Assembly (NCBI RefSeq): GCF_023702675.1
Contig: NZ_CP098478.1
Coordinates: 3,844,001 to 3,908,000, forward strand
Source of the DNA: Acinetobacter sp. C26M
GTDB lineage: Bacteria > Pseudomonadota > Gammaproteobacteria > Pseudomonadales > Moraxellaceae
Length of the DNA: 64,000 bases
Direction of reading: 5' to 3'
In this document: positions 24,786-42,363 of the stretch, piece by piece
Position numbering within the stretch: the stretch's first letter is position 1
Layout: every line of letters starts with the position of its first letter
Position numbers and translations under genes: made by a program
Notes under the pieces: generated by a model
What the model was told of the DNA's origin: nothing
Databases searched by the model: none
Seen by the model: the letters and a program-made list of their open reading frames with translations, nothing else

Positions 24786-25778
24786 ATGGCCATTTCAATC
24801 AATCGTTCATGGGCAACATATAGCATCATCGCAGCAAGTCTTGCTAGCCTGATGGGTGTTGCAGGTTGTGCAAAAAAACCAGAGCAGCAAGAGACAAAAA
24901 AACAAGAAACCACAACATTAAATATCGGCTTTCAAAAGTATGGCATCTTGCCGATTCTCAAAGCAAAGGGTGAATTAGAAAAAAATCTTGCTGCTCAAGG
25001 CGTAAATGTTAAGTGGGTTGAATTTCCTGCAGGTCCACAGCTGTTAGAAGGCTTAAATGTCGGCAGTGTGGTTTTTGGTGAGGCAGGTGAAGCACCGCCG
25101 ATCTTTGCACAAGCAGCTAACCCCAATTTAGTTTATGTCGCCAACCAACCTGCGGCACCAAATGCGGAAGCTTTAATTGTACAAAAAGATTCACCAATCC
25201 AATCAATCCAAGATCTGAAAGGTAAACGTGTCGCGCTGAATAAAGGCTCGAATGTTCATTACCTGTTGCTCAAACTATTAGAAGCGAACAATCTCAGCTT
25301 GAAAGATATTCAACCTGTTTATCTACCGCCTGCGGACGCACGCGCAGCTTTTGAGAAAGGTGCAGTAGATGCTTGGGTGATTTGGGATCCATTCTTCGCA
25401 GCAGCAGAACATCAGATTCATGCGCGCGTAATCGCAACGGGTGAACACTTAGTCAGTAATCACCAATTTTATTTAGCCGATCGCCAATTTGCCGAAAGTC
25501 ATCCTGAAGCACTAAAAACGCTGGTCAGTACACTCAATCAAACAACGGATTGGGTCAAAACACATCCGGACGATGCAGCCAAATTACTCGAAAAACCAAC
25601 TGCACTTGAGTTTGATGTCCTAAAAAGTTCAATTTCGCGTATGGGCTTTGGGGTTCAACCAATTTCTGAGAAAGTCGCAAAAGAGCAGCAATACGTAGCC
25701 GATGCTTTCTTTGCGCAGAAACTGATTCCGAAGCAGCTTGTGATCCAAGATGCCGTATTAAAGAACGATGTTAAATAA
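24786..25778 (+). CDS. ssuA: Aliphatic sulfonate ABC transporter substrate-binding lipoprotein (copy 1)
   Basis: Captures alkanesulfonates for SsuBC. The ATG at 24786 yields a lipoprotein signal ending GVAGC, followed by the SsuA/NMT1 fold: [74 protein letters not shown], and [26 protein letters not shown] lipid anchor is less common for Gram-negative SsuA. The gene is first of five codirectional ssu genes and has a paralogue immediately downstream (12-bp gap). Confidence 0.88.
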   Translation: MAISINRSWATYSIIAASLASLMGVAGCAKKPEQQETKKQETTTLNIGFQKYGILPILKAKGELEKNLAAQGVNVKWVEFPAGPQLLEGLNVGSVVFGEAGEAPPIFAQAANPNLVYVANQPAAPNAEALIVQKDSPIQSIQDLKGKRVALNKGSNVHYLLLKLLEANNLSLKDIQPVYLPPADARAAFEKGAVDAWVIWDPFFAAAEHQIHARVIATGEHLVSNHQFYLADRQFAESHPEALKTLVSTLNQTTDWVKTHPDDAAKLLEKPTALEFDVLKSSISRMGFGVQPISEKVAKEQQYVADAFFAQKLIPKQLVIQDAVLKNDVK

Positions 25779-25790
25779 TTGAGGATCACC

Positions 25791-26777
25791 ATGAAGTTGT
25801 TATCTAAAGTTTCTGTTTTGGGCCTACTGATCTCTACATTTTCACTGAGTGGTTGCCAGAAGCCAGAGCAAACGACGGAGAAAGCGGCTTCAGCAACTGA
25901 AAATACGGCTGTCAAAATCCTATCCATTGGCTTCCAGAAGTCCTCCCTCAATTTGTTAGTTGCCAAACAACAAAAGCTATTTGAGCAAGCATTTCCGAAT
26001 GCCAAAATTGAATGGCGAGAATTTCCAGCAGGTCCACAAATGCTTGAAGCACTTGCAGTGGGTGCTGTAGATTTCGGTTATGTCGGCAATACACCACCGA
26101 TTTTTGCTCAGGCTGCGGCTAAACCGCTGAGCTATGTGGCATATGAAGTCGTTGCGCCAACAGGACAGGCTGTTTTGGTACATGGCAACGATAAAATAGA
26201 CAGCCTTCAAGATTTAAAAGGCAAACGTATCGCAGTACAAAAAGGCTCCAGTGCTCATGAACTTTTGGCAAAAACCTTGCAGAAAGCGGGTCTATCTTGG
26301 CAAGACATTCAACCAATCTGGTTACCTCCTGCCGATGCACGTGCAGCTTTTGACAAACAGGCCGTTGATGCATGGGCAATTTGGGAACCCTACTTAGGGA
26401 CAGCAGAACTGCAAGGTCATACCAAAACCTTGGTCGATGGCTCTGCTTTTCCGACCACTTATTCTTTTTATATTGGTAATCCTGATTTTATTAAAAATCA
26501 TCCCGATTCAGCGCAGAAATTCATTAACAGCGTTAATAACGCAGATCAATGGATTGTACAACACCAAGATCAAGCCTTACAGATTTATGCACAAAGTACA
26601 GGTCTCAGTACCCCTGTAGCGAAGCAAGTACTTAACAAACGTCCTAAACCTTCACCTGTATATGCACTCAACAGTGAAGTGATTAAAAGCCAGCAACAAA
26701 TTGCCGACTTATTTAAACAAGAGCAGCTCATTCCTGCGCAAATCGATATTCAGCACAGTGTCTGGTCTGCCCAATAA
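25791..26777 (+). CDS. Aliphatic sulfonate ABC transporter substrate-binding lipoprotein (copy 2)
   Basis: 328 residues, clearly paralogous to the preceding product: [96 protein letters not shown]. The lipobox is LSGC at residues 20-23. The ATG at 25791 with GAGG upstream is preferred over TTG 25779. The two binding proteins differ in ligand-pocket surroundings and may widen the substrate range of one SsuBC importer. Confidence 0.88.
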
Positions 26778-40896: not shown

Positions 40897-41439
40897 ATGC
40901 TGATTTATATTATTGTTGGTAGTGTTCGGGAAGGTCGCACAGCGATCAAAGTCGCTAATTGGGTACAGCAAGCGACAACTGAACTCGCATTAAAAGATAT
41001 TCAAACCGAAGTTGTTGATCTTAAGGAATGGGACTTACCGCTATTTGCAGGTTCTCATCCACCTGCGACAGGCATTTATGATCAGCCGAAACAACAACAA
41101 TGGGCAGATAAAATTGCACAGGCACAAGCCTTTATCTTCATTAGCCCTGAATATAACCATGGCTATAGTCCAGCGCTGAAGAATGCCTTGGATTATGTCG
41201 GGAAAGAATGGCAAGGCAAACCAGCAGCTTTTATCGGTTATGGCTCTACCAATGGCTCCCGTTCAATCAGTCAAATCCGCCAAGTAACTTCAAGTTTAGG
41301 GCTGGTTGATCCCAATGCCGTAATTGAAATTCGCGACATCTTTAAACGTAATAAAGACGAGAACTTTGAAGCCAATGAGTTTGAAGTGAAAGGATTAGCG
41401 GCTCTCGTTGCTAAATTACAGAAATATCATATCGCTTAG
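40897..41439 (+). CDS. NADPH-dependent FMN reductase / quinone reductase
   Basis: 180-residue flavodoxin-fold enzyme: YIIVGSVREGRTAIKVANWV (phosphate-binding loop) and IFISPEYNHGYSPALKNALDYVGKEWQGKPAAFIGYG (the SPEYN and LKNALD motifs of the FMN_red family). It reduces flavin or quinones with NAD(P)H. As the ssu operon here lacks ssuE, an enzyme of this class might supply FMNH2, but no direct link exists. AGGAA precedes the ATG. Confidence 0.88.
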   Translation: MLIYIIVGSVREGRTAIKVANWVQQATTELALKDIQTEVVDLKEWDLPLFAGSHPPATGIYDQPKQQQWADKIAQAQAFIFISPEYNHGYSPALKNALDYVGKEWQGKPAAFIGYGSTNGSRSISQIRQVTSSLGLVDPNAVIEIRDIFKRNKDENFEANEFEVKGLAALVAKLQKYHIA

Positions 41440-41440
41440 T

Positions 41441-41458
41441 TGTACGCCTAAGCGTACA
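41441..41458. promoter_or_regulatory. 18-bp palindrome resembling a GacA/LetA box
   Basis: TGTACGCCTAAGCGTACA: outer halves TGTACG and CGTACA with a 6-nt centre. The GacA upstream activating sequence is TGTAAG-N6-CTTACA, so each half differs at a single position and the symmetry and spacing are identical. It lies about 65 bp upstream of the presumed start of the candidate sRNA. No T-run follows, which argues against a terminator for the FMN reductase gene. Confidence 0.5.
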
Positions 41459-41512
41459 TTGATCAGGTCGATTTACGTCTGTTCCATTTCTGGCTTGATC
41501 GCTAATATATGA

Positions 41513-41636
41513 AGCATAGAGAGACAGGAAGTCTCATTGAGAATAAGAACAGACACAGGATGTGGTCGTTAATAGGATATCAACGACATAAACTGAATAT
41601 GAAGAAGCCCCGTCAGGATGATGGGGCTTCTTTTTG
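41513..41636 (+). ncRNA. Candidate CsrA/RsmA-sequestering small RNA (RsmX/Y/CsrB-like)
   Basis: A non-coding stretch of about 120 nt ending in a Rho-independent terminator. Four GGA motifs each lie in the loop of a local hairpin: GAGAC-AGGAA-GTCTC (41521-41535); CACA-GGA-TGTG (41554-41564), whose ACACAGGATGT nearly matches the CsrA consensus ACARGGAUGU; GTCGTT-A-ATA-GGA-TAT-C-AACGAC (41565-41587); and the terminator itself, whose 12-bp stem caps with TCA-GGA-TGA (41604-41630). This is the design of RsmX/Y/Z and CsrB/C. A -10-like TAATAT is at 41503-41508 with a poor -35, as expected for an activated promoter. Exact ends are inferred; binding of CsrA is not shown. Confidence 0.6.
41604..41635 (+). 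terminator. Terminator of the candidate sRNA
   Basis: GAAGCCCC (41604-41611) and GGGGCTTC (41623-41630) followed by TTTTT. The loop holds TCAGGATGA, which can extend the stem and expose GGA. On the other strand the AAATPase gene ends within 3 bp. Confidence 0.92.
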
Positions 41637-41637
41637 T

Positions 41638-42363
41638 CTATTCTTTCTCTAACAACTGCTCGATTCGCTTTTGATAATTATTTAAAAAATCCTTTGTTAC
41701 CCGAAAATGCTCTGTTTCTTCATAAGATATTTCTTTAATCCCTGAATCGGAAAACTGATAAATTTTGGCATTTGGATAAGCCAATAAAATAGGAGAATGG
41801 GTGGCAATAATAAATTGAGATTGCTCCTGACATAAACGATCCACAACCGACAAAGTTGTCATCAACATTGTTGGAGACAAAGCTGCTTCTGGTTCATCTA
41901 AAAGATATAAACCTTTACCTTTTAATTTCATTGTTAATAATTTTAAGAAAGCCTCTCCATGCGAGCGTAAGTGTATATCTCCCCCATACTCCACCAAATA
42001 GTCCACTTGCTTCATATAGGTTGCAACGTTATAGAAGCTCTCTGCACGCAAAAAGTAATAATCTTGAGGCTTCTTATAACTTTTTATCGTTCGAATCGCC
42101 TGATGCAAATCAGAAGCCGTTGTTGCAGTATTTAATTGTACATTCCGCGTTCCGCCTTCTTCTGAAAAACCCAAAGCAAGTGCTAAAGCTTCAAGAATGG
42201 TCGACTTTCCTGAACCATTTTCTCCAACAAAGAAGGTTACCTCTGGATGGAACTCAATACTTTCTAGATCATTAACCGCAGGAACGACATAAGGATAACT
42301 TGCCCAATCCAAGGACTCAGGTGCTTTAAACTTCACAGCTCGAATATAGGGTCTTTCTTGCAT
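41638..42363 (-). CDS. AAA/ABC-type ATPase of the SMC-like predicted ATPase group
   Basis: 241 residues forming a single ATPase head: Walker A FFVGENGSGKSTILEALA, an ABC-like signature region RSHGEAFLKLL, Walker B GLYLLDEPEAALSP and H-loop FIIATHSPILLAYP. No coiled-coil insert or nuclease (TOPRIM) domain, so it is not a full OLD protein. Function unknown; such stand-alone ATPases are widely conserved. It is convergent with the candidate sRNA. Confidence 0.85.
   Translation of the reverse strand: MQERPYIRAVKFKAPESLDWASYPYVVPAVNDLESIEFHPEVTFFVGENGSGKSTILEALALALGFSEEGGTRNVQLNTATTASDLHQAIRTIKSYKKPQDYYFLRAESFYNVATYMKQVDYLVEYGGDIHLRSHGEAFLKLLTMKLKGKGLYLLDEPEAALSPTMLMTTLSVVDRLCQEQSQFIIATHSPILLAYPNAKIYQFSDSGIKEISYEETEHFRVTKDFLNNYQKRIEQLLEKE

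Follow-up and report, generated by a model that had tools for sequence, protein, structure and literature searches.

The 64,000-nucleotide stretch of Acinetobacter sp. C26M analysed here (assembly GCF_023702675.1, contig NZ_CP098478.1, positions 3,844,001 to 3,908,000 of the forward strand; hereafter the window, with coordinates counted from its first base) carries a locus that, judging from its sequence and conservation, is very probably a GacA-activated small RNA (sRNA) gene of the Rsm/Csr sponge type, whose product would sequester CsrA together with sister copies elsewhere in the genome. In Rsm/Csr systems, GacA activates transcription via an upstream box, for which the Pseudomonas consensus is TGTAAG-N6-CTTACA; CsrA dimers bind GGA motifs in the hairpin loops of the sRNA, and this titration of CsrA frees its target mRNAs. 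An earlier note, made from the bare sequence, had read the locus in this way, and the reading is supported by a box held at a fixed distance from the RNA, by GGA loops on covarying stems, and by genes for CsrA, a GacA-like regulator and a GacS-like kinase in the genome. The predicted sRNA locus is confirmed as a real element. Its product is a known kind of RNA and not a new kind, and more interest attaches to the regulon as a whole; new here are the distribution of the family, the finding that two copies have lost box and GGA motifs jointly, and three further sRNAs that follow a box.

The elements named earlier all lie in order between two genes: a palindrome, a second conserved element, a -10 hexamer, three GGA hairpins and a GGA-capped terminator. 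The flanking genes proved to be those proposed, namely an NADPH-dependent FMN reductase on the forward strand (40897 to 41439; PF03358, 116 bits) and a converging AAA ATPase on the reverse strand (41638 to 42363; best match PF13304, 61 bits). The reductase stop codon occupies 41437 to 41439, and two bases after it begins the unstranded GacA-box-like palindrome TGTACG-N6-CGTACA (TGTACGCCTAAGCGTACA, 41441 to 41458), recognized by sequence and conservation, which departs from the Pseudomonas consensus by one base per half, as had been pointed out. The hexamer TAATAT (41503 to 41508, forward strand), likewise supported by sequence and conservation, would serve as the -10 and would place the transcription start at about 41515 to 41517; the centre of the box then lies about 66 bp away, in line with the 65 bp or so estimated before. 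Between box and hexamer, per-column information in 104 upstream stretches revealed the second conserved element on the forward strand (41471 to 41482; ATTTACGTCTGT in the window, family consensus about ATTGGCGAATAT). It starts 30 nt after the box start and overlaps the place expected for a -35. A scan of the locus for a sigma-70-like promoter with a -35 found none.

With its start taken from the -10 and its end from the terminator, the predicted sRNA spans 41515 to 41638 on the forward strand and would be about 122 to 124 nt long. Its four GGA motifs begin at 41527, 41558, 41575 and 41616. Hairpin 1 (41521 to 41535) presents GGA 41527-41529 in the loop AGGAA on a stem of five pairs, for which 100% of the alignment cells are paired; hairpin 2 (41554 to 41564) is the short CAC-AGGAT-GTG structure of 3 bp around GGA 41558-41560; hairpin 3 (41565 to 41587) carries GGA 41575-41577, with compensatory change at 5 of 7 pairs; and hairpin 4 (41601 to 41633), with compensatory change at 7 of 15 pairs, is an intrinsic terminator capped by GGA 41616-41618 and followed by a T run. 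All four are on the forward strand. The minimum-energy fold of the single sequence places GGA in a loop in hairpins 1, 3 and 4 and does not contain hairpin 2. The claim that all four motifs sit in hairpin loops thus holds directly for three of them, while hairpin 2 draws its support from compensatory changes in relatives, where its middle pair turns from A-U to G-C in 9 of 34 copies. Folding of 41515 to 41638 gave -42.4 kcal/mol, compared with -23.9 (sd 3.3) for shuffled sequences (z -5.58; 0 of 200 shuffles as good). A terminator scan of the region found 1 against 1.1 expected in shuffles; a terminator alone is therefore weak evidence, and the case rests on conservation. Within 41601 to 41640, the sRNA terminator runs up to the point where the convergent ATPase reading frame stops, and it may therefore end both transcripts; the T run on the reverse strand is the weaker one.

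A DNA search of 58 genomes returned matches in 20 of them; the genome that contains the window (G000) had four. We built a covariance model, R1, on an alignment of 34 copies (A2), which excludes five others: L033 and L034 are decayed, L015 is truncated, and the boxes of L003 and L005 had escaped the pattern used for selection. R1 matches the window copy at 41508 to 41635 (G000:3885508-3885635) with 138.6 bits. Seven copies in G000 reach E 1.2e-10 or better, and the hit ranking after them has E 0.011; besides the window copy, the six others lie at 26264, 97411, 101450, 102869, 3716062 and 3716940. We refer to these sequences as family A. In A2, 98.1% of the cells assigned to pairs are paired, and compensatory change is seen at 15 of the 30 pairs. 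The compensatory cells number 88, as compared with a shuffle mean of 24.4 and with 1-18 after sliding of the partners. A broader alignment, which comprises 93 distinct rows and is fitted to the model and hence biased towards it, gave 97.4% paired cells, compensatory change at 25 of 30 pairs, and 312 compensatory cells versus 87.3. Against this background of changing stems and linkers, the GGA motifs of hairpins 1 to 4 are kept in 34, 34, 34 and 33 of the 34 copies, respectively, as expected if CsrA reads the loops. The earlier note had called for exactly such a comparison of loops and stems.

The box is kept just as consistently. For this analysis we took 102 matches minus six below 60 bits and 39 matches minus three below 60 bits, 132 in all, and reduced them to 108 distinct copies by dropping duplicates and one copy with less than the 120 nt of upstream sequence needed; the loci had been taken as best matches or by sequence pattern, so the sample leans towards well-kept copies. 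At least nine of the ten fixed bases are present in 104 of the 108, and all ten in 82. In these 104 the box always starts 64-67 nt before the model start, and the bases surrounding it are not conserved. By comparison, 2 of 5000 masked random windows reached nine of ten, and 23 of 5400 shuffled upstream stretches reached nine or ten. Since the box is kept at a fixed distance in 104 of 108 distinct copies, it is very unlikely that the pattern at the locus arose by chance. The four exceptions are a box-like sequence shifted by one base (L062:622), the truncated L015 and two decayed copies (L033:1451-1578 and L034:1458-1585). In both of the latter the box is lost and the GGA of hairpins 2 and 3 has become GAA, with the terminator intact; box and loop motifs decay together, as expected if both serve one function. 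These two copies occupy corresponding places in related genomes, and their decay may be a single event.

A covariance search of Acinetobacter genomes, as the earlier note had suggested, found matches to R1 in 170 of 175 (E up to 0.001). Each matching genome has 1-15 matches, a raw count that may include antisense hits to the palindromic terminator, of the kind that turned up among the weakest matches elsewhere; some copies stand in tandem. Named species that carry the family include A. baylyi, A. dispersus, A. junii, A. haemolyticus and A. beijerinckii. Four of the five genomes without a significant match have weak ones at laxer limits (E 0.0016-0.0082), and for one of these (L180, G061) a box lies at the expected distance. 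Matches outside the genus are rare and weak. Among genomes drawn from the taxonomic family, 64 of 199 match, one of them outside the genus (G267, E 7e-4), and among those drawn from the order, 3 of 293 match, again with one outside the genus (G343, E 8.6e-4); a pattern search at the G343 locus found no box.

In A. baylyi DSM 14961 (L201), a family A RNA follows an FMN reductase gene closely homologous to that of the window, with the box between them and a converging gene after the RNA, and the order of three more ORFs from upstream in the window is preserved. The earlier note knew of no description of an sRNA at this place, yet a prediction probably exists: for A. baylyi ADP1, Table 2 of PMC5568370 places an RsmA-regulating sRNA between ACIAD0018 and ACIAD0019, at 25035 to 24917, with a probability of 0.99. 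Its length is 119 nt, versus about 122 nt for the window RNA, and its gene order and orientation are shared with the DSM 14961 locus, which, seen from the other strand, has the orientation printed for ACIAD0018/0019; on this ground we regard the window element as the probable counterpart of the ADP1 prediction, a correspondence that we infer. The ADP1 entry differs in being, as tabulated there, a computational prediction only, and the converging gene in the window's genome, the AAA ATPase, is a different one. The same table holds a second ADP1 prediction at ACIAD2750/2751, and the text notes that earlier work (Kulkarni 2006) predicted other such sRNAs. In PMC7366521, RsmX, RsmY, RsmZ and CsrA of A. 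baumannii appear in brackets, which denotes genome inspection without experiment.

The design of the window RNA agrees with that of RsmX, RsmY and RsmZ in Pseudomonas and CsrB and CsrC in enterobacteria, which have the same GGA loops including one in the terminator cap (summarized in PMC7366521), and which likewise have their own promoter with a GacA/UvrY-type box and reside in genomes with GacS/GacA and CsrA. Unlike these RNAs, the window RNA has only four GGAs, and there are seven copies in the genome. Such redundancy has a parallel in Azotobacter vinelandii, for which Table 1 of PMC7366521 gives RsmZ1-7 and RsmY1-2, also many Gac-controlled sponge RNAs in one genome; by name, these belong to a different sequence family. 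The family A copies searched reach no Rfam family. At gathering scores, only rRNA and tRNA were found in the whole window. With RsmY (RF00195), the window copy scored 19.8 bits (E 0.53) and the best sister 27.8, short of the gathering score of 57, and no other Csr/Rsm family was listed for the family copies at eight loci at E up to 10.

We next consider the proteins on which the proposed function would depend. The genome has one csrA gene (PF02599, 91.8 bits, over the cut-off). A GacA-like response regulator has UvrY/SirA/GacA as its best NCBIfam model, with 267 bits versus 163 for the next model, although it does not reach the curated cut-off of 280. BarA is the best model for a GacS-like hybrid kinase (568 bits, versus 388 for LetS as the next; curated cut-off 890, not reached), in which HisKA, HATPase, receiver and Hpt domains were recognized. 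Strong matches to the GacA-like protein occur in 174 of the 175 genus genomes. Absence of family A does not go with absence of GacA, an idea that was tested and rejected: all five have GacA and at least one strict box (the stringent form of the box pattern, described below). Conversely, family copies occur in G191, where GacA gave no match at 1e-40. Across genomes, the presence of GacA and that of the family therefore do not go hand in hand.

In the mechanism that we infer, and do not read from the sequence directly, phosphorylated GacA would bind the palindrome at 41441 to 41458 and switch on transcription from the promoter with its -10 at 41503 to 41508. The window copy would thereby be expressed as an RNA of about 122 nt ending at the terminator at 41601 to 41633, and its four GGA loops would allow one RNA to bind about two CsrA dimers and hold them off their mRNAs. 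The seven family copies and three other box-led sRNAs would probably act additively, and a GacS/GacA signal would then be converted into a graded lowering of free CsrA.

Two alternatives accept a regulated sRNA and differ in how it works. The RNA might be under Gac control and act mainly by base pairing with mRNAs in the manner of Hfq-dependent sRNAs, its GGA loops being secondary or meant for another protein. The linkers between the hairpins are A-rich and partly conserved, and A. baumannii has many base-pairing sRNAs (PMC11472050). A pairing seed should be invariant, however, and it is the loop GGA that is invariant here, whereas the linkers differ both in length and in sequence and the stems compensate; the loss of GGA along with the box in the two decayed copies speaks in the same direction, and we consider this alternative improbable. 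A comparably slim chance, rated a shade lower, attaches to a CsrA sponge whose box is bound by some LuxR-family response regulator other than GacA. The genome does contain seven GerE-domain matches, several of them with receiver domains on inspection by eye, and the window box is one base per half away from the Pseudomonas consensus. Other copies come closer, though, the L010 copy carrying TGTAAG-N6-CTTACA itself, and GacA is nearly universal in the genus.

The remaining alternatives deny that the locus is an sRNA gene at all, and both are extremely unlikely. The count of 1-15 matches per genome and the tandem arrangement of some could be taken for a dispersed repeat or mobile element with a terminator-like hairpin and no regulatory function; the compensatory stems, the invariant loops, the box at a fixed distance in the promoter and the same upstream flanking genes at the A. 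baylyi locus are all at odds with this, and we rejected it on the stems, the A. baylyi synteny and the box. A short protein could be encoded by the 30-codon ORF that starts at 41560 in the window copy. Its start codon, however, requires GGATG in hairpin 2, which only 11 of the 34 aligned copies have, loop and linker lengths shift by one or two bases, and the stems covary, so that a coding reading was rejected as well.

We also searched G000 with the box pattern itself. Looser forms of the pattern gave 19 and 17 sites compared with 13 and 12 for the control, so only the strict form is informative; it gave 11 sites, whereas the reversed pattern gave 1. All 175 genus genomes, the five without a significant family match among them, have one strict site or more. 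Seven of the 11 strict sites front family A copies, and three front other non-coding stretches that end in a terminator. The eleventh (G000:3410606) falls between two ORFs of the same strand that are 39 nt apart, and no GGA-rich RNA was seen after it. The locus had been presented as the Acinetobacter counterpart of RsmX/Y/Z and CsrB/C; the reading as a sponge-type sRNA is supported, but the locus is one of seven family copies and lies beside three other box-led sRNA candidates in the genome.

These three candidates, all box-led, non-coding and terminator-ended, define families B, C and D. The box of B is at G000:C1:3448160 (L118, reverse complement, from 1501 on), with further members at L163-L166 and L168-L170; those of C and D are at G000:C1:3527584 and G000:C1:3528001 (both L119), with further members at L154-L160, and C and D form a tandem pair about 0.3-0.45 kb apart. 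In G000, all three boxes are on the minus strand. In other genomes, the signatures of B, C and D were found behind boxes at 8 of 11, 6 of 8 and 8 of 8 loci examined, respectively. Seven GGAs are invariant in eight aligned B sequences. In D, the stem of a GGA hairpin covaries, but GGAs are few and long stretches of sequence, among them the repeated ACTTACAG, are invariant; D may therefore do more than hold CsrA.

Transcripts are on record for these families in A. baumannii. ABUWs074, ABUWs076 and ABUWs077 were detected in AB5075 in a study by RNA-seq and Northern blots (PMC5320573), for which they were chosen among six of the most abundant sRNAs. In genome G062, the published probes fit B with 0, C with 1 and D with 0 mismatches. 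The same paper describes, as Group 3, four related transcripts of 128-147 nt (ABUWs005, ABUWs061, ABUWs081 and ABUWs083), to which it assigns no function; like family A, they have a short hairpin with a conserved loop and an extended hairpin. Compared with six good family A matches in A. baumannii NZ_CP077849.1, gene number, size, order and relative strand agree, while the spacing agrees only roughly (e.g., 708 versus 729 kb and 98 versus 100-102 kb). From size and map position, family A probably corresponds to the Group 3 transcripts. For the window copy itself, the features of a stand-alone transcript are those of sequence, namely the -10, the terminator and the lack of a conserved ORF; the AB5075 transcripts are probable family members and not the window copy.

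In this genome, GacA may act largely through about ten sRNAs. We further put forward, tentatively and at somewhat less than even confidence, that the Acinetobacter GacA regulon consists almost only of sRNAs, about ten per genome from at least four families (A and those of ABUWs074, ABUWs076 and ABUWs077), with up to 15 family A matches; that GacA would rule by the dosage of redundant CsrA sponges; and that the most conserved of them, the ABUWs077-like D, would have a second task in addition to holding CsrA. In A. baumannii, GacS/GacA has been described as a regulator of virulence with global reach (PMC6480566). The searched portions of three Gac papers (PMC12609611, PMC10746170 and PMC10878099) returned no match to CsrA terms, and none of the Gac papers, in the parts searched, links GacS/GacA to CsrA and named A. 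baumannii sRNAs by experiment; nor is CsrA mentioned in PMC5320573. Families A to D would supply the missing step from GacS/GacA to CsrA in A. baumannii, the three abundant Northern-detected RNAs ABUWs074, ABUWs076 and ABUWs077 would gain a role, and the cascade would become testable genetically.

The record NZ_CP077849.1 (L174) used in the comparison above comprises 3,658,084 bases and is labelled A. baumannii plasmid pDETAB15, while its size and family content look chromosomal. Two other hits in the plasmid collection, NZ_CP104448.1 and NZ_CP064203.1, are of similar size.
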